In this document: in pieces, positions 15,880-50,900 of the stretch
Layout: each line of letters opens with the position of its first letter
How positions within the stretch are numbered: the stretch's first letter is position 1
Assembly (NCBI GenBank): GCA_036023115.1
Contig: JAYKKT010000040.1
Span: 4,620,501 to 4,684,500, forward strand
Origin: Brasenia schreberi
Lineage: Eukaryota > Streptophyta > Magnoliopsida > Nymphaeales > Cabombaceae
Direction: 5' to 3'
Length of the DNA: 64,000 nt
Position numbers and translations under genes: made by a program
Notes under the pieces: model-generated
The model's input: only the letters and a program-made list of their open reading frames with translations
Database searches by the model: none
What the model was told of the DNA's origin: nothing

Positions 15880-18800
15880 ATGGCGGCCCTCCGGCGCGCG
15901 CTCCGTCCGCTTATTCTCCGGTATGGCGTTGGAGGGCGACGTCGGACAGGACGTTACTGTTCCCCTGAAACCTCACCGAGAGTCGCGCAGGGAGCAGCAT
16001 GAGCGCAACGTACAGTGGGTGTTCCTCGGCTGCCTCGGCGTCGGAAAAGGCACCTAAGCCAGCCGTTTGTCTCAGATTCTCGGAATTCCTCACATTGCCA
16101 CAGGCGATCTCGTCCGCGACGAGCTTGCTCAGGCTGGGCCGCTCTCTCGTCAGGTCCCTTCCCGTTCTTCTTGGGGTTGAAATTCGATTGGTTTTGCTTT
16201 GCGGAACTTTGGTGTCTCTCAGTTTGTCGCTTCATGAAGTTTCCGTGGTACCCATTTCTTGTTGTGGCGTTTATTTTGCTAAATAATTTGATTAGATGGA
16301 GCTCGTGATAGCGGTGTTGCAGAATGAAGGAAATTAGATTCACCCTTGTTTGAATCTTAAGTCGTTTTTTTTTGTCCCGCGGGGTTGATAGTCCGTCTAT
16401 TCATGTAACTAGAAGGAACTACAAATACCCTTGTTGTGAAAATGATGAAAGAAAAGCCTTTCTTTTGCTAGACCTACAATGAGTGTTGATTTTGAAGGGC
16501 TTTCCATGCTACCCTTTTCTATTGGCGGCATATATTGGTAAGGACGGAAATGGAGATTTGACATTATTATGATCTCTTCAAGTTGTAGAAAATATGGGTT
16601 TTGAAGCAATAACATAATCATGATACCTTTTTCTTGATGTTTGCTTTGTCTTGTCTCCCTTTTGGTTCTTATGGTGTTCTTAATTTACACTAGGCATGTT
16701 GATGTTCAAAACGTGGTGCTGACTACTCATGGACGTTATTCTGGGTCGTAAAAGAATTTTGAAGTCAGTGTAGGATTTGTCACCTTCCTGAAGGCTCCTT
16801 CCAACTTGCAGCTAGAAAGCATTGTCAATCAAGGACAGCTGGTTCCCGATGAATTTATTATAAGCCTTCTGTCCAAACGTCTTGAGAATGGGCAAGCACA
16901 GGGTGAATCAGGATTCATCCTCGATGGTTTCCCAAGAACAATAAGACAAGCTGTGAGTAGATAGTGGATATGAACCACTTGCTTTATAGTTTATTATCGT
17001 ACTTTTATGGGTTCTTTGTACATGACATGCTAGTTCTTGGTAATTATTATGGATGCCCGAGCTTTTCTGAATGAATGCTTCTTATAGACCTTGGAGCATT
17101 TCCACGATCATGTTTTCTATTCATTTTATGGTTGCTTCTTTTTTATTATCAGAAGTGAGCCCAATTACCTCTGTGGACACCACTTATGGTCAGCCTCACA
17201 GCTGGGTGCTGCATAAGCTTTTACTTTTGCATATAGGTGCTTCCTTGCTTTGTTTCTAAACTGTATCCTTCAACCTTATCTATTTGTTCTATGGAGCCTT
17301 CATAGATTAGCTATTTTCAGTTATGAAATTTTATGAAACAAGTTGAGTTTCGAATTAGAATTCAAGTTCATTTGTTTCACAACAGGCTGCTGCTCATCAC
17401 CACCCATTGCTGCGACTACTCTCTAGTACCCCTACCGGTGGTCATCACTACCACTTGCTGTCATGTCCCACTACTTCTCCCTGCTGTTTCTCATCACCAA
17501 TATCATCGCCCACTTATCATCACCATTACCATTCACCAACACACATCAAACTCTGCTGCCACCATTACTACTATTGGTCGTCACCTGGTACCACCACCAC
17601 CATCAACAAACTTCACCACCACTATGACCATACTAGGTCTCTGCCTTCACCACCACCATCTTCATGATTGCCATCTCATGCCACCTTTGTTTCTGCTACT
17701 AGATGCTGTCTTCACTTGTATCATCTCAATCCGTCATTACCACTCTATGCATCAGCCCTATCACCATCATCTGCTGCTTCCTGCCAACACCGCCACTTAT
17801 GGGTTTATGGTTTTCCAGCATTGCTACCATCCAAAAATTTTGCCCATTCTTCACTTCCCATATTCCTTTACCACCAATATTACTATAACCACGGCTGTCC
17901 TTCATTACAACCTAAAAATAAGTTCATCCAAACACTGAAACACCTTTTTCCTTTTTGTTCTAAAACAAATATCCATTTTAATATTATAGTACCCTTTTAT
18001 GGCTGGAGACAATGATCATAAACTGGCAACATGAATGTACCTTACCAAGATCTTCATATCATTAATTCTGCAGTCAACAGAACAGAGTTACTATTTCTTT
18101 TCGGATGCCCTATGTTTGCTGATGTACTATTTGGGTCCAAATGTTTGTGTGCGAATTCCTGGTTGTCATTATGGTTGTGGTTGTTTTACACTTATTCCTT
18201 GTTCTTTCCTTTGTAGTTTGTGAGCTAACCTGTCAACTTATTCATACACTATATTTTTCAACTTTCAATGAGGTTATGTTTCTGTTAACATGTCCTGAGA
18301 ATATTCCTCACCCCTATGATTTGCAGATGCAGTTTCTCGCAAAATTCCTGTCTAATAATATCTTGATGTTTTAAAACTTTAGAGTGTAATGTCTCTGATT
18401 TGTCAACTTAATTGAAGAACCGTTCAATATGATGTGATGTTCTTCATATTCTACCATTACTGAGTTATTCTGTTCTTTAATGCCATGCAGGAAATTTTGG
18501 AGGGAGTAACTGAGATTGACCTGGTGATAAACCTGAAACTTAGAGAAGATGTATTGATTGCAAAATGTCTTGGGAGAAGGATTTGCAGTCAGTGCAAAGC
18601 CAACTTTAATGTGGCATCCATCAATGTTGAGGGGGAGGATGGCAAACCAGGAATGTGTATGGCTCCTCTTCTGCCTCCCCCACACTGTGCAACAAAGCTC
18701 ATCACTCGTGCGGATGATACTGAGGAAGTAGTCAAGGAACGGCTTCGTGTCTATGACAACATGGTAGTGTACAAGAGCCTATTAAGCTTTTCACGTTCTT

Positions 18801-19747
18801 GTGAAGTTTAAGTAAAGCTATGGCAGTTTGGGTTTTAGTGTCTCAATTGGAGAAACAAAAGTAATACTTGAATCAAGTCGGTAAGATGCGTAAAAAAATC
18901 ATAATTTTGAAAATAGACATGTAAAGGTTTTATAATGTCAAAAAAGTAAAATACTCTTCACAAGTAGCACGCTAACTCATGTTTGCATAAATATGGAACC
19001 TTCCCTCACCCTAATTATAAAACTGAAAGGTCAAGCACTATATTTGCCGAAGTTAGTAAATAATGCCCATAAAAGATGACTTTATGCAATCAATTTAAAT
19101 GTAAGTAAGCACAATTGAAGTCATAGAAGCAGTTAATTTGTTTTTTCTTCAAGAGAGGAGTGTATCATATCAAGTTATGTCATAGTGCATCTACTTTTTC
19201 TTATTATGCAATAAGGTACTTATGGCCATGACTAAATATAAGTTTAGTGTATAACTGCTCTCTTGATACTCATAATTCTTTAACTGTTCTTAAATTCAAT
19301 GCAGCAAAATTTGTTACTTATGATGCCATTTTGTAGTGTTTTCATGATTCGATTATGAGTTTTTCTAGTGACTTGATGGTTCAATAACTCCTTATCCTTG
19401 AAAGGATGACTTTATATCAACATAAGGAAATGCAATCTAGAATTTATGTCTTGTGATTTTCATGATCCCTGAAATCCTAACCTTTTCTAGTTATATTTGG
19501 TACGTCAAGTTCTCCTAAAACTTTTGGCTACCGAAAGTGCTCTTGTTGAAATTTCTGATATTTTGTGGGATGACATTCAACATCGATGGTTTCCTGTGTG
19601 CAGAGTCAGCCCGTGGAAGATTTCTATCGTTCTAGAGGGAAACTGCTCGAGTTCGATTTACCAGGTGGTATCCAAGAGAGTTGGCCAAAGTTGCTGGAAG
19701 TACTCAATCTTGAGGACCATGATGACAATCTGAGTATTGCAGCATAA
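15880..19747 (+). pseudogene. Organellar adenylate kinase gene, broken in exon 1
   Basis: Adenylate kinase converts ATP and AMP to two ADP; this form belongs to the plant plastid/mitochondrial type (At2g37250-like). There are four exons: 15880-16153, 16812-16952 (LESIVNQGQLVPDE, GFILDGFPRT), 18491-18763 (LGRRICSQCKANFNV, KLITRADDTEEVVKERL) and 19604-19747 (FDLPGGIQESWPKLLEVLN, then TAA). All introns are GT-AG and phase 0. Exon 1 is damaged. A transit-peptide-like start at 15880 (MAALRRALRPLILRYG) is in a different frame from the kinase (QWVFLGCLGVGKGT), and TAA at 16055-16057 stands where relatives have Tyr after the P-loop. The P-loop also reads GCLG where GCPG is usual. Exons 2-4 are clean, so the loss looks recent or reflects a sequence error. 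A start at 15923 is in the kinase frame but still meets the stop. Confidence 0.85.
17385..17800 (+). repeat. Low-complexity CAC/ATC-rich tract in adenylate kinase intron 2
   Basis: About 400 bp of imperfect CAC, ACC and ATC triplets with almost no guanine runs. It holds open a long but meaningless frame (His, Thr, Ser and Leu rich) inside the 1.5-kb intron. It is a decayed microsatellite, not an exon: the flanking exons join in phase without it. Confidence 0.7.
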
Positions 19748-20902
19748 ACATTGGTGGGAATAAGCTGCCAATTCGCTCAAAGTAAGTCCAAGAAAACAGC
19801 AGACATTGGGATTTTGGAGCTGGTTAGAGGAGCTACATTTAATGGATCTTGGCATCTTGCTGCATGGCATCATAAGGTGTGCAGGTGAACAAAACCTGAC
19901 CTAGGATATTAATTTATGCTTGAGGATGGATCAGAGAACTTTTTGTCATTCATTTTGGAATGTAACCATCCAAAATTTTTGACAATATTTAGATGTGGTT
20001 TTATTTGATGTGCTTTGTATTCAAGTACATTGTTGTTGAATGATAATGAGACCGACATGCTTGAGGATCACCTTCAACTTGTCTAAACTTAATGCTACAT
20101 GAGCTGCTCTTCTACAAAGGAATTTGTTGATTATTTGATGTGCATTTTAATTTCTGCCAGTAGATTGGAGGAGCTGTTCATCTTCATCCATTGCTAGTTC
20201 TCTTCAACTCTTTACCGTTTCCATTGTGTAGTTCATTTGATTGTTTTGTGAGTACAGAAATTACGAGCTGGGAAAGTAGTGGATTTGATTTCTTTGCAAG
20301 GAAACGTCAGTTTTAACGTGTAATCTCTCCAGATAATCATGTGGTTTACTTATACTTGTATTTGACCTTTACCAATGAATTAGTCTTAATCCTCTTCTTA
20401 TTTTCCACAAGGATCCATGCTGCAGAGTTTATTATAATACCTAGTGAACTAACTAAAGATTATAAACCAATTTAGCTTGTGCTTGGTTTTGATAAATAAT
20501 ACCTGACTCAGTATATTAGTTGGGTCTGATCGGTCTGACCCGAATAGGTAGCTGAATCTATTCTTCTTTACCAACCCAATATTCTATCAAACAAATGTGG
20601 GGTGCATGGGGATCAGGTAAGTTGATACCCTTAAAGTTATGGGTGAAATCATAAAGAATACCGTCATAAGGATGGATCTGGTCGTATTGAGCTACTAGAA
20701 CCAGTAGAACATGGTTATTCTTACAGAAATGCCAAAACATAAACAAGCTAGCAGAGGTCCTATTGAGCATTACTAGATTCAGTAGAGCATAGTTATTCTT
20801 ACAGAAAAGACAAAACCTAAACAAGCTAAGCAGAAAGCCAAAATAGACTCCTAGTTGCTCGGTTCCTTCCATGGTCTAAAGGTAGGAAAAAGATCCTCTA
20901 AA
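19748..20902. other. Spacer between adenylate kinase and the defensin cluster
   Basis: AT-rich. It probably holds the 3' UTR of the kinase gene and, at its right end, that of the convergent defensin gene. No exon or transposon recognised. Confidence 0.45.
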
Positions 20903-22885
20903 CTAATCTTCAGTTGTACATGCCTTCAGACACATGCATTTCCTCACAATGCCCTGACAATCACCACCAAAGAAGCCTTCGGTTTGACATATGTTTGCGC
21001 AATTTTTGTCACTGAGACACAGCCCACTAAACTTCTTGCTTTCTGATGAACACGTCCTGATTTGAAGATCTTTCTCTGCCCACCCTGTTCAATGGTTGCG
21101 ACAAGCATTATATGTCAGCATAAAACCAGCGAATGTGGACTAAATTACTGTAGAGTCAGGTTTACAAACTCTTCATGTCGGTATCATGGTTTGTTTAACA
21201 TGGTATCAGAGGCACAAGTCTCTACTTTCGTCTAAAAAAGATTGATTGAAGCATCTAAAGTTCCAAAACCTATTATTCAGGTAGAGATGGACAGCCTGAA
21301 CACCGTTCAGTATTGGATGGGAGGATATTGAGGTACGACGGACATGTGAATACCATTCAGTTATTCAATAAGGATAACCCTTATTCATTTCCCAACAGCG
21401 ATTTACTTTCAAGGATTCAGGAGATGCGAACCCAGGCCTCGTGAATCAGATTTGTCTTCTGTAACAGGGAGGGGAACAGAGTAGCGGATAAAGTATTGAT
21501 GCTTGCAGTACATCAGACCACAATTCAGTGAGGGGTGATGCAACAGGGACAGGAATTCTGAGCACCGATGATCTGTAAAGGGCCGTTAGCCTTCTCCTAT
21601 TAGATAAAAAAAGGTTCCAGAACCTACTCACCATGAGCGATGGCCTCTCTGCTCATAAGATTATCTTCATCATCGTCATCATCAACAACCATATTTGCAG
21701 CTACTGTGGACTCTGCAGGACAATAAATTACAACTCAAGCCTCGTCCAGTTAGGTTAGATCATAATAACATGTTTTGAGCAGTCCATTGATCCTGTCCTG
21801 AACAGTGAAGACTTGATGATATAAGTCGGTGCCCTTTTTTGGGTGAAATACACTACCAGTATCCATAAGTCTCAATTAGAGATGCAGAATATTGAGTAGA
21901 TAACTAGCTCACAAGTTGAAATACGGATAATCTATGAGTTCGTAATTCAAGTTCTTCATGACGCTTTGGTGCGTCGATGGCTTCAAGAGGCTTATTGCTC
22001 CCTTTTAATCAGAGTTCACTCACCGGCAGCAGTTATCTGTTTGCCATCATCATCATTATCACCTTCGTCATCAGAAGCTTTAAAAGCTGCAGCCTCTGTC
22101 AGACAACCAAGTGAATTTTGAACTTAATCATGGTTACCAAGATACAAAATGGACACCAACTATGATACTAAATAGCAGAAATGAGTGTTGAAAAAATGTA
22201 AATCAATTTATAGTTGCTGGAATGTGAATTAATACTCATGAAGCAGATTTAAGGCAAAATTATAAATATAAGAGGGACAGCGAGCTTGCATGCACCTATA
22301 TTTGAAATCATTCCTCAAGTTAGAAGACAAGAAGTGAGTTTTCTAGCATTCAAACGGTACTCCCATATCGTCAAATACAAGGTTATGAAACGTAGAATCT
22401 GCCCTTCTTAGGGGAGTCATTATCACCAAGTAGCATAGAAACATCAAGGTGTCCCCGTTGCCTCTGGGTGCTTGCTGCTTTGGCCTTACGGCAGGGAATG
22501 CAACCATGCTAAGATGGATTTACTTCCTTCATCCCCTAACTAGAGTCCGTCGAGTTCATATATAGACCAGTTCTCTGTGTAGCTAGCCTAAAAAGATCAT
22601 ATCGGCTTGCATTCATGAATGCTTCTAAGGGAGAGGTGTTGTTCGAAAGGCACGGGTGTGAACGAAGGCATTGTAAGCAGAAGATGAGGATGTATGAAAC
22701 AATTCTTTTATCCTCGGACTGGAAAATCAGTGTCTAAGATGCTCCAGGATATTAGTTGGAAAATGGACCTCAGTTGAGAGAGAGAGAGAGAGAGAGAGAA
22801 AATCACCAATGGCTGCTAGCAGCAAGAAGAGTATAACGAGGGCATGGAAAAGGGTCTTAGTGTTTCTGGAGGCCATTGATTTCAT
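20903..22885 (-). CDS. Plant defensin with an acidic N-terminal propeptide (four-exon model)
   Basis: Predicted secreted cysteine-knot peptide of 137 residues. Exon 1 (22885-22807) encodes a signal peptide (KTLFHALVILFLLLAAI). Exon 2 (22095-22024, 24 codons) and exon 3 (21712-21632, 27 codons) are acidic: 17 Asp/Glu against 3 Lys/Arg, with a five-Asp run at residues 61-65. Exon 4 (21084-20903) encodes the defensin domain, with eight Cys at 89, 100, 106, 110, 120, 127, 129 and 133 (C-x10-C-x5-C-x3-C-x9-C-x6-C-x-C-x3-C), the canonical plant pattern. All three introns are phase 1 with strong sites (ctgacag|, ctgcag|, gaacag| acceptors; GTGATT, GTGAGT, GTGAGT donors). Plain plant defensins have only a signal exon and a defensin exon, as at 34.6 kb. 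If exons 2 and 3 are skipped, the reading frame is kept. A second in-frame Met lies at 22874-22876. Splicing of the acidic exons is inferred. Confidence 0.75.
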
Positions 22886-24508
22886 GAAACACTGACTGAC
22901 TTCCTTTACTTATAAAGGAAGATGAGAACCTTGAGTGGGCAGGCTGGTTATTCACAAATAAAAGAGAATGAAGACGGCGTCTTCGTTCGAACAATTATTT
23001 CAGGACAACCGGGCTCCATAATTCATCATTATAGCAACATGAAGTTCACATGTTCGTGCTGACTTCTTGGATGCTTTCTGTCCTTGTACACATACAGAAT
23101 CCCGTACTTTATGCAGATAACGTATTGCATGATTAGTCCAAACATTAGTAAGCATGTGAACCACCTAATTTTCCAACGTTCATTACCTTTTTTCTTTTTT
23201 GATATGCATCTTCTGTTAGACCAATACATACCAGATGCACAGCCAAGTATTAGGTGTCTTTGAAGTGCAGAAAAGCGAGGAAATCAGAACGGCAAAATTC
23301 AAATGGTGGGAATACATAAAGAGAAGAAGGATAAAAAAAGAGTGCATTAAATATTTGACAGCATCAAGCAGCTCCTACATCCACAACTAAAAGAAGATTT
23401 TCTTGTCATTACAAAAGGTAGCAGCAGCAGCATAAACGAAAGACCAACTCTCTATCACGTTCTCAATCTAAAATCCTGACCAAAACGCATTTTAATTATA
23501 TCCTAGACATTAAAACCTTTACATCCGTTAGCTTTCTTAATGAATAAGTTAAACATACAGAGATATTATTTGTTTGGAGTAATCCAAATGCCGATGTTTC
23601 GAGCCACAGACTAACATGAGAGATGACCCCTTAAGCCATTGTCTTATGTCCTTTGGGGCAGACAATGAAGGATGTTTTATATTCAACAAGTAAAAATGAA
23701 TATGGCAACTTGTAGATACATTATACTATTACATCCTCATCATGGTTAAATGAGCCGCAACTCATAAAACTGGTCTTTGATAATATAAAGCAAGTTTTGA
23801 TCAAATAAATTCCTCAAACCTTGATCAACCAACTGCAGAAGGAATGACATTGGGAAATGATATAAGAGGTCCGCATCTTTTTCAGGTGCACTAGTTTTTA
23901 CATGGTGTCACGCTGTTCATAAATTCATACCTTTTACCACAAGGGGTTGAGTGATACAGCTATTAATGTACTGTAACTAGGACTGTATTCGTCCTGATCT
24001 TTTGGTTCTGTACCCCACGGAGGAGCTTGGATACAAGCGTTTGCTGAAACTTCAGTGAACGTTCTGCTCATTGCCAACCACTACCGAAAAGGAGACAGAC
24101 AGGTTCTGAGATGCATTCCCTCCCGTGACATAAGAGCTATGTCACAAGCATGTGCGACTGAACCCAGCACGGTGAAAATAATGTTGTAGAGACACGGCAA
24201 CACACACACACACAATATTTTGTATAATTGATAATATATCATGGAACTAGAAGGAAAACTCGGTTTCCAAAACTGATTATTTACTAATAAAGTATTAATT
24301 GGTCAATATTTCACAAAATATTTCTTCACGTGGCACTATCTTTTAGTTAAAGTTTTAATCAGAAGTAGTCAAAAATAGTTGGTACTGACTGGGACATAGG
24401 AGAATTATGGGTATCAAGCGTCGAACGTGAGTGCCGCACCCAGAAGGAGCATCCTTGTGACCTTGTGACATAGTATAAAAGAGGAAGGAGCCACCGCACA
24501 CACGCGTG

Positions 24509-25927: not shown

Positions 25928-26166
25928 CTAAGGGTTGAAGCAACTGCACCGCCTCTTGAAGAGCCAGCAGTGGCAGCAATCGGTCGAAAAGCCTTCTTCA
26001 TGGCAGATGGTTTTGCAGTCGCTTTCCTCTGCTTTCCTCAGCCCCCTGTTTCTGTTTCATGGTTTCATACAAAATCATGAGAGAGAGAGAGAGATGTTTA
26101 ATTATCAGAGAACAAGGCCCGCGCGAGCACAGGGGGAACACTTCTCAGTTCTCCTAAAGAAGTCAT
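25928..26166 (-). pseudogene. Defensin pseudogene
   Basis: Exon-2 remnant 26045-25928 reads CKTICHEEGF, then a cysteine-rich stretch ending KRRCSCFNP and a stop. The part that would carry the first two cysteines is deleted, the deletion shifts the frame, and the last conserved Cys is gone. The exon-1 remnant (26166-26106) aligns with exon 1 of the copy at 34.6 kb, but its donor GT is now AT (GATAATTAA against GGTAATTAA) and the signal sequence is scrambled. A short CT tract follows the dead donor, as in two of the other copies. A LINE nest begins at 26251, about 85 bp upstream of the old start. Confidence 0.8.
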
Positions 26167-30834: not shown

Positions 30835-31890
30835 ATGGCGTCCTTCAAGAGAAGCCTCTTCTGTGTGCTACTCTTGCTCATTTCGCTCTTACGTTTGGTG
30901 ATTTTACTGCTCTTTCTTTCGGTTTCTTTGTCATCTATCTATCTATCTATCTATAAACATGCCCGTTTCCATGTAAATCGGTTCAAGTCACTCAAAATTG
31001 TGACTGAATCAGTCAGTGGATGGTTCCAGATTTGGTTTTAATTTTACAACAGCTTGGGATCTGATTCTGATTTTACAACGGTTTTATATCTGGTTCTAAT
31101 TTTATGACGGTTCTAGATCCGGTTTGACCCAAAACCGGTGTTTAAAATATGGGCATAACAACCGGTTGTAATGTTCCTGTATTCGGGCAACACATGAAGC
31201 CAAAAATTTGCCAGGGCCGCCGGGAAGTCAGCTGCCGGCACCCGGGTATAAGGGCGGGACAGCGGTCGCCACAGGGCACCCAGGTAAAGGGGCATGACAA
31301 CTGGCTGTCAATGTCCCTATATTATATATAACATAACATAATATATATATATATATATCATAATGAAAGAGAGTGCCACGCAGTTCTCTCTGTTTTAAAT
31401 ATACATTTTAGTTGCCGTTTCGGGTCGAAATCGGACTTAGAACCGACAAATTTTAGATTACGGATCTGAACCAACAATCCAGATCTGAAACCGACTCGAT
31501 GGGTCGAACTCCTATTAGTGCTTTAGATTAGATTGTAAAACCGAACCAAACCGATAAACCAATTTTTTATAATAATATAAACCAAACCCGAACAAATTTT
31601 AAGTAAAATCGAAACCGAAATTTATCCGAATAAAGCGCACTCCTATTAGTGCTTTAGATTAGATTGTTCCTATGGGTTCTTAATAATGTAATCTCTTTCT
31701 CTCTCACACATTATTTTCGGAAACCATGAAACGGGACGTAGCGAATGCACAGGCACAGAACCTGTGCAAGTCTTCAAGCAAGAGGTTCAGTGACAGAAAT
31801 TACAATATCTTCTGCAAGGCAGAAGGCGCCGTCCACGGTGAATGTGATGGCTTTGTCCGGAGGCGATGCATATGCTACTCCTCTTGCTAG
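30835..31890 (+). CDS. Defensin-like secreted peptide lacking two conserved cysteines
   Basis: Two exons, 30835-30892 and 31742-31890, joined in phase 1, give 68 residues. A signal peptide (MASFKRSLFCVLLLLISLL) is followed by PNAQA, a good signal-peptidase site before QNLC. The mature part keeps Cys 28, 44, 54, 62, 64 and 68, matching C1, C4, C5, C6, C7 and C8 of plant defensins. C2 is removed by a deletion of about five residues after KRF, and C3 is Tyr 40. The bonds C1-C8 and C4-C7 can still form; C5 and C6 lose their usual partners. The arginine-rich gamma-core (GECDGFVRRRCIC) is kept. The frame is open and a TATA box is present, so it may be expressed; it could also be an early pseudogene. 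The acceptor (GACGTAG|CG) was chosen because it alone fits phase and signal cleavage. Confidence 0.72.
31508..31667. repeat. 29-bp direct repeat flanking 102 bp, inside the defensin intron
   Basis: An identical 29-bp sequence starting ACTCCTATTAGTGCTTTAG lies at 31508-31536 and 31639-31667. The segment between is rich in AAACCGAACC words. It ends about 75 bp before the exon-2 acceptor. It is too long for an ordinary target duplication; a local duplication is likelier. Confidence 0.8.
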
Positions 31891-35008
<3,118 letters not shown>

Positions 35009-47952: not shown

Positions 47953-50900
47953 TCATTCCCATCTAAGAGAAACCATTGAATTTGAAAGACCGGCCTCTGC
48001 AAAGCTTAGGTTGCTATTGTAGTCTAGCTGTTTGGATGCACCTGGTATTGCTTGCGTCAAGAGAAATGGTCGTGATTCAGCTTCTTCTGAAATGGAGCCG
48101 CAGAAGGACCATAGCAGCTGTATTCAAAATTCAAAAACCAGTTTACATAAGATCTCCAAGCACGGCAGATCAGTAGTAACAACATTTTCCTGTGAAAAAT
48201 TCGAATATATGATGACATAAAGCAACTGTGCTCTCAGCAATGAATAATGTAACATCAAGATACTGATCAGAATAATGCCACTAAAACCAAAACAAAATCA
48301 AGCATTATCCCACGCAAAGTGTAGTCAGCCACATGGATTCTTAGTTCCCATCATGCTCTTCGATCTTATGTCTTTAATAGGCCTTTCAGAAAAAATACCA
48401 TATGACCAAAGTAGGGGGATGTACCTTTATTGGATCTGTTAGAAGGAAGTTCCTACGATGCCTTTGCCCATCAGGGAGACGAACCAAGACTTTGCACAGA
48501 AGGCTGTTGTCACACTTTGGCTCATCGGGTAGTGGAGGGTACGTAGAAGCCTTGGTGTAATTAGGAACTTCAGGCTCAGGATCCTTCCGTTTGCGTTGTT
48601 CGTCTTCATCTGATATCACTGCAGGTTGTTTCACATCCTCGAGAGATGCAGCTATAGCCTTTAAAACATCCTCATCTTCTTCGTTGGGATCAGCAGCTAC
48701 TGATGATGCCTCTGGAAATGCAGCATGAAGTGCAGAGAAATATTGAAGGTACATACATGATAATGAACCATAAAACCTAATACCGGCTGATACACCAATT
48801 GAACTCTAGGGTTGTTTCGGTAGCCAAGACAACAAGCAGGACAGAAACAGATTCAACAAGGATGTTGCTTTGAATGATGGCAAAACAAACAAGTCAAATC
48901 AGATAATTATAAATAATCAAGAGTTGCTCAATAATTAACAGAAATTTTAATAAATTGAGAGCAGAATGCAGTGCCACGAATCAGTTATTTAATCATTAGA
49001 AAAGGTCATCCAATTGATCACCATCCCTCTACTTCAATCACCACGCATCTTTGGTTCACACACTGTTCAGGGATTCGGAGGGTGTATACAACCAGTTAAA
49101 CAAGGTAAGGCCGTGTTAAAGATCTGGAGATGTGGCCCATCAACTTAAAGATAACCTACTTAAACCAGAGCAACCAAATTCAACGAGCATCAGGCTTGAC
49201 CAAAACCATGACCTGTATCAACCTCTTATGGTGGCCTTGAGTTGAAACTCTAAACAAACTCTTGAAAGACAACAAAAATTAGAATTCCCATTATAACCAA
49301 CTCAACCACAAATCACCAGAAGAAACTCGGCTGCTTCTGGCAGTTGACATTGGGCGGCCTGTCTGAAAGAGCCCTGCATAATATGATTGACCACATTTGA
49401 GAATCAGCAGTTGATCTGTCTCAGGACCACCGGAGTCATTTCCTTTCAGTATGCAACAGGAGATAATATCTTGTACGAATTGATGCATGCACTGACGTAG
49501 AAGACGAGCTCCAAGAAACAAAAAGAAAAAAATAAGAGGGAACAAGGGGGTTTGTGGACTTTGGAGGAGAAAAGTTGCACGCTAGGGAGTGGAAAACCCT
49601 TCAGATCACAGTTGTTTCAAACAGCAAAGCAACTTGCAATTCTTTCAAATGAATAGGATGTTTTTTTCTCATCATAAAAAGTTGACAATAGACTACACAA
49701 CGTACAGTACAAAGATATCGGTTACCCATGAAAATTCAGGCCTCAGACTGGACATCATCACAAATTACCCAGACGATAGGAAGAACATAATTGGCCCAAA
49801 TACCTGACTTTTGTTGGCCATTTTCAGCATTCTCTCTCATACGCTTGGAAGGATGAGATGTATGGTGATCCATAGGACCCTTATCCATGTATGGAAGAAG
49901 ATCCTACATTTGCATATTTCATGAAAAAGTTAAAAGAGCATAAATTAGCAAACAACTGAATCCAGAATATGATGAGAACATCTTTAGTTTGATAGTATAA
50001 CAAGGCCTATAAAAATATGAACGCATTAGTGTTAGTACCTCCAGCATACGCTCTGGTCCAACCATGCCGCACCATGAACGCATTTTTTGCCCAGTGATGG
50101 GATCAATGACCAGAACAACAGGAATACTTACCAGTTTATAGTAAGTACAGACCTTTTTGCCTTCAGACGTATCATCATATATCTGAAACAAAATCAGGCT
50201 TTTAAATTGGCACTTGAACAACGCAGAAGTACAAGAGTTATGATGAGTAATCTCAACTCGGCTCAGTGACACAATTATCTAATACAGCAAGTGGATGATT
50301 TTATTAGTTTACTTGACTGCTTGTAAGTGAAGCCTCTCATGAAAGGCTTATGTAATCTTATCACGCACTTAATTTGTTTTTGCTAGATCACAGAGAGTGG
50401 AGAACTGGAGATATTGCAATACCTTATGTTACCAAAAAGCTGCAGCAGCGGCACCTAGATGCCCGTCTGTATATATATTTCTTTTAAAGTTCCTTCTTGA
50501 TTATACTGGTAAAGAATGAAAATTGTTTAAATTTTTTTATATCATGAAATATATGTATGTAAGTTTCTTCTTCTTTTTTTGTACCTTTATCTGTATATTT
50601 TACATTTCTTTTATTAATTCTCACTAGACTGCATAGGCTCGTTCATACCTCTTCCAGAAGTCTGGCAACCTAGGCCATGGCTAGGGATTTTGAGAAAATT
50701 GCAAGAATCGCGTACACCATACTCTATTTGAAATGCCTGAAGGTCTTGCTACAGGATTGAAATCCATGATTATGTACCCCACTAAGAAACCTTAGGGGGC
50801 AAGGAAGGTTATCCTTTCTTCTTCTCTTTCATTTTATCTAATTTTCTTAGGTTTCATCATATTTGATACACGAAATGTGTGTATTGTATATGTCATATAA

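Follow-up and report, generated by a model that had tools for sequence, protein, structure and literature searches.

A plant defensin gene of Brasenia schreberi with two frame-neutral, exon-like segments that may encode an acidic N-terminal propeptide

The defensin gene D1, located on the minus strand of the 64,000-nucleotide stretch of Brasenia schreberi DNA analysed here (the window), probably encodes a precursor in which two frame-neutral exons, cassettes A and B, add an acidic, low-complexity propeptide of 51 residues on the N-terminal side of the defensin domain. Its parts, in the order of transcription, are:

exon 1 (e1): 22807..22876, minus strand, signal peptide MASRNTKTLFHALVILFLLLAAI and the first base of a phase-1 split codon
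cassette A: 22024..22095, minus strand, 72 nt, phase 1-1, encoding EAAAFKASDDEGDNDDDGKQITAA
possible shorter form of A: 22063..22095, minus strand, phase 1-1, using an inner donor (score 2.93, the third best of the intron) and encoding EAAAFKASDDE
cassette B: 21632..21712, minus strand, 81 nt, phase 1-1, encoding ESTVAANMVVDDDDDEDNLMSREAIAH
exon 4 (e4): 20903..21084, minus strand, linker WAEKDLQI followed by the mature eight-cysteine defensin RTCSS...KACTTED and the stop
likely 3' UTR: 20680..20834, minus strand, a tandem 78-bp unit in two copies, 86% alike, behind the stop

D1 is an intact eight-cysteine plant defensin gene with a phase-1 host intron of 1,722 nt. The start ATG at 22876 was chosen by homology, a second in-frame ATG being present upstream at 22885, and the hydrophobic signal peptide can be aligned with those of Nymphaeales defensins. 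The domain matches PF00304 with 61.5 bits (cut-off 25.1; E = 9e-17), and its eight cysteines follow the plant-defensin spacing. When the mature domain was compared with PDB sequences, the best match was 7c2p (E = 5.1e-15), among solved plant defensins. The fold predicted with AF2 (mean pLDDT 77.7) is β-α-β-β and shows the CS-αβ arrangement, and a Foldseek search with this model likewise ranked 7c2p first (E = 1.3e-5) and matched plant defensins. The first-pass annotation had called the locus a plant defensin gene, and the family match, the cysteine pattern and the predicted fold all bear this out. The γ-core of D1 reads GIVRKC in place of GFRRRC.

In the four-exon model, six of six junction dinucleotides are GT or AG. 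Neither cassette contains a stop in the carried-over frame, both lengths are multiples of three, and the reading frame is open in every splice form, yielding 134 residues with A and B, 107 with A, 110 with B and 83 with neither. The rebuilt model thus agrees with the earlier description of two open phase 1-1 segments at 22095-22024 and 21712-21632 with lengths divisible by three. The accompanying statement that they can be included or skipped freely holds for the reading frame only, as the splice-site scores favour inclusion. A class I layout, in which the domain directly follows the signal peptide, arises in D1 only when A and B are both skipped, and even that form has no small residue at the usual place before its domain.

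Splice sites were scored with generic, untrained plant matrices. Among the 82 GTs of the intron, the donors of A and B rank first and second (scores 5.53 and 4.66), while among its 95 AGs the acceptor of B is the best (5.12) and the acceptor of A comes sixth (2.25), so that the splice sites of both cassettes can be called strong, as had been claimed, on the scale of these generic matrices. The host sites, scored as a control, rank only 7 of 82 (e1 donor, 0.68) and 14 of 95 (e4 acceptor, 0.80), which means that these matrices cannot by themselves tell real sites from others. Since both host sites score below those of A and B, inclusion of the cassettes is the simplest prediction. Scores as high as that of the B donor are found at 0.65% of the 6,586 GTs on the two strands of the whole window, and scores as high as that of the A acceptor at 4.7% of the 7,593 AGs.

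We also scanned for phase-1 open cassettes of 30-200 nt, with thresholds set just below the A and B values and chosen after these had been seen. Four such cassettes were present on the two strands of the window, A and B included, and these two were the only ones among the four with at least 25% acidic residues. First-order Markov resampling of the intron (3,000 sequences) gave 30 with at least one cassette, 2 with an acidic one and 0 with two, numbers that are somewhat favourable because the thresholds were fitted to the observed values. At looser thresholds, the phase-1 open cassettes within the intron were still only A, the shorter A and B, and the only other acidic ones in the window were the shorter A and an (ER)n repeat at 10.5 kb.

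In class I defensins, signal peptidase cuts directly before the mature domain, usually between A-E-A and R. The residues that precede the mature domain of D1 are L-Q-I, with leucine at -3, isoleucine at -1 and no small residue. A search with a seven-row alignment scored 7,986 candidates and returned 146 matches at E ≤ 10, and 117 of the best 120 of these 146 served as the comparison set, after removal of three with deviating cysteine patterns. The -1 position is occupied by alanine in 93 of the 117, glycine in 16, threonine, aspartate and glutamate in two each, and lysine and valine in one each; the residue there is therefore small in 111 of 117 database defensins among the matches listed, and isoleucine in none. 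Alanine also occupies this position in the neighbouring paralogue D3 and in eight of the nine Nymphaeales proteins retrieved, the ninth (P0082) having aspartate. With leucine and isoleucine at -3 and -1, the usual class I cut looks unavailable in D1. A signal peptide that no longer ends at the domain would be expected if a pro-segment lies between the two, and in this respect the sequence supports the propeptide. As the form without A and B could still be cut between G-W-A and E, the missing small residue is support and not proof.

The 51 residues of A and B include 17 Asp or Glu, 3 Lys or Arg and 1 His, and this recount agrees with the 51 added residues, 17 of them acidic and 3 basic, that had been given before. 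The net charge is -6 for A, -8 for B and -14 for the two together; that of the mature D1 domain is +1, a low value for the database set, in which charges run from 0 to 11 with a mean of +5.9. Net acidity per 20 residues before the domain is 3 or less in 117 of 117 database defensins listed and reaches 8 in the long form of D1. The first-pass annotation had likened the segment to the anionic pro-segments of animal defensins, which neutralise or chaperone the mature peptide. Neutralisation by matched charge is not supported by these values (-14 against +1), which disfavours a pure neutralisation model. Because -14 far exceeds +1, masking, solubility or sorting is the likely role and would fit the acidic segment better than one-to-one neutralisation.

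We envisage a precursor whose mRNA would normally include both A and B, and whose signal peptide would be removed by signal peptidase near the junction of A-A-I-E-A-A-A and F, or between I-E-A and A. As an N-terminal propeptide, the acidic segment would then accompany the defensin along the secretory pathway until it is cleaved off, perhaps by a vacuolar or apoplastic protease that recognises Asn or Asp. Judged by protease preferences, candidate cuts lie after D-E-D-N or after A-E-K-D.

D1 belongs to a defensin cluster that also contains:

D3: 34599..35008, minus strand, intact class I paralogue of 81 aa with AEA before the domain; PF00304 64.8 bits
D4: 30835..31890, plus strand, decayed defensin copy; PF00304 27.8 bits
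D2: 25928..26166, minus strand, decayed defensin copy; PF00304 18.0 bits, below the cut-off of 25.1

The intron of D3 (34941-34778) measures 164 nt, and the cassette scans found no acidic exons in D3 or in D4. Two cysteines have been lost from D4, one in a short deletion and one by replacement; in D2 the first two cysteines are gone and the donor GT, as judged by eye, is replaced. The D1 domain has been kept intact with its eight cysteines in a cluster where two copies decayed. For D1 and D3, pairwise dN/dS over 135 bases was 0.24/1.47 by NG86 and 0.35/0.48 by YN00, and this dependence on the method means that purifying selection is not firmly shown for the pair. LINE-like reverse-transcriptase remnants (assigned to LINEs by eye, with no family match) lie within the cluster at about 26.3-30.3 kb. 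Elsewhere in the window, 18464-18808 on the plus strand weakly resembles adenylate kinase (PF00406, 22.5 bits against a cut-off of 26.8) in a frame that points towards D1, and 48386-48805 on the minus strand probably encodes part of a UBX-domain protein (PF00789, 19.6 bits, slightly short of the cut-off of 21), for which more exons up to 52 kb are suspected by eye only.

A protein database search with D3 matched seven of eight candidates, four of them from Nymphaeales; these four best relatives, one from Victoria cruziana, two from Nymphaea thermarum and one from Nymphaea colorata, indicate that the plant most likely belongs to the Nymphaeales. None of 82 candidates matched the 134-residue form of D1 at E ≤ 0.001 in a search that uses a word filter, and the acidic block was present in none of the nine Nymphaeales proteins retrieved. 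Missing relatives may mean lineage restriction, annotation gaps, an effect of the word filter or unreal exons; given the word filter and the short genes that annotation may miss, they amount to weak negative evidence. One Nymphaea thermarum protein of 97 aa (P0012) was considered as a relative and rejected, since its extra N-terminal part is not acidic and comes without a signal peptide; it is probably a wrong gene model. A tree calculated from 20 domain sequences, with 1 of 17 inner branches strongly supported, did not resolve D1, D3, D4 and all but one of the nine Nymphaeales proteins and so points to no orthologue of D1. The database proteins included a plant-defensin-like sequence (P0023) deposited under the name of Staphylococcus aureus, on a contig of 343 bases, which is probably a contamination, and a Vigna mungo precursor (P0009) with two defensin-like halves, the first of which breaks off after the fifth cysteine.

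An origin of the two cassettes by exon duplication had been suggested, on the strength of a shared E-x-x-x-A-A motif and an Asp run. The motif is literally present in B (ESTVAA) and absent from A (EAAAFK), and the acidic runs of both are built on GAT-like codon runs, to which their likeness is confined. By shuffling and resampling, this likeness is not clearly beyond chance, and exon duplication is not supported: Markov resampling reached the local DNA score 63 times in 2,000 and codon shuffling 220 times in 2,000, and 365 of 5,000 shuffles reached the global protein score. The flanking introns are unlike, with the observed scores reached in 497 and 308 of 500 resamplings. Growth of a GAT repeat, or an old and blurred duplication, is a possible origin. 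Neither cassette matched Pfam at E ≤ 0.1, and a PDB match to 7ue2 (RPB_PLP3_R6, E = 0.092) was taken as chance. A search for further copies in the window returned only the cassettes themselves, apart from two tblastn matches of B (E = 1.1 and 6.3), and the region 20600-23400 contains no inverted repeats of at least 16 bases.

Three other explanations of the locus have to be weighed. Splicing of A and B might be regulated, so that a short, class I-like form of 83 aa and long acidic forms meet two different fates. The frame is kept in all combinations, the e1 donor and e4 acceptor are modest, and a third, inner donor offers a shorter variant of A; the strong internal sites argue for constitutive inclusion, however, and the short form would lack the usual small residue before its domain, and we regard regulation of this kind as unlikely. 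The missing residue at the usual signal-peptide cut also speaks against A and B being cryptic, exon-like segments of a long intron in a gene whose product is an ordinary class I defensin only, as do the finding of two such cassettes in 0 of 3,000 resampled introns and the fact that the A and B donors are the best two of this intron. That explanation can draw on the ordinary structure of D3, on the nine Nymphaeales proteins and the database searches, in which no relative with an acidic block appeared, and on the GAT repeats from which the acidic runs could have arisen, and yet it seems to us rather improbable.

A further possibility is that the acidic segment is retained, giving a secreted protein of two parts whose acidic N-terminal tail would serve, for example, in metal or cell-wall binding. 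The low charge of the mature domain (+1) and the altered γ-core would suggest a non-classical role, but the acidic segments of the NaD1 (PMC3922462) and Ib-AMP (PMC10136942) precursors are removed, according to the accessible parts of these papers, and retention in D1 appears very improbable. The explanation that we favour is still that of a removable propeptide contributed by A and B, on which the lack of a relative of the long form, together with the lack of an acidic N-terminal part in the Nymphaeales proteins, is the main restraint.

Plant defensins are divided into class I, with a signal peptide and the domain, and class II, with an acidic C-terminal propeptide; the layout of D1 had been claimed to be unlike either, which agrees with the descriptions in the accessible parts of PMC7432377, PMC6329339 and PMC3922462. 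D1 resembles class I in its PF00304 domain, eight-cysteine pattern, secretory signal and phase-1 host intron after the signal peptide, as in D3, and differs from it in the acidic 51-residue segment encoded before the domain and in having no small residue directly before it. As in class II, the precursor would bear an acidic segment that can presumably be removed, whereas the D1 segment lies on the N-terminal side, is encoded by two cassette exons and has a charge that does not correspond to that of the mature peptide. The acidic C-terminal propeptide of class II (~33 residues) has no counterpart in D1, which stops four residues after the last cysteine (TTED-stop).

Negative N-terminal prodomains are named for insect and vertebrate defensins, and not for plant ones, in the accessible part of PMC7432377. 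The order of signal, acidic pro-segment and cysteine-rich domain in animal prodefensins would also be that of D1 if the encoded pro-segment is included in the mRNA, as predicted. In animal prodefensins the charge of the pro-segment about balances that of the mature peptide, in contrast to the -14 and +1 of D1. Animal defensins also differ from D1 in gene family and exon layout, and any likeness between them would be convergent. Among plant peptides, the Ib-AMP precursor of Impatiens has acidic propeptides of 16-35 residues between its mature peptides; these are likewise N-terminal to plant cysteine-rich peptides, but in a multi-peptide precursor of another peptide family, as far as described in the accessible part of PMC10136942. 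N-terminal propeptides occur in cyclotides as well (PMC11258990, in part accessible). In the accessible part of a durum wheat survey, 24 of 28 defensin genes have two exons and one intron, the gene models of wheat orthologues have three and four exons, and N-terminal segments of more than 70 residues are present in two of the protein models (PMC12024934); extra exons and long N-terminal parts are thus not unheard of in plant defensin gene models, although, compared by description, the extra part is not called acidic or a propeptide there. The literature searched, to which subscription papers mostly do not belong, yielded no plant defensin with an N-terminal acidic propeptide in the parts that were accessible.

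The D1 domain is thus, to judge by its sequence, an ordinary family member, and its precursor layout would be new, if expressed. It is conceivable, though doubtful, that D1 represents a third class of plant defensin precursor in an early-diverging angiosperm lineage, with an acidic N-terminal prodomain made of two splice-removable exons. Alternative splicing could then decide whether the one defensin is secreted directly or is masked or re-sorted, and the arrangement would be convergent with that of animal prodefensins. If the proposed propeptide is real, D1 would set a third precursor layout beside classes I and II, point to the insertion of exons into a host intron as a way of gaining a prodomain, and make it possible to ask, in a natural system, whether an acidic segment can act from both ends of the defensin domain.
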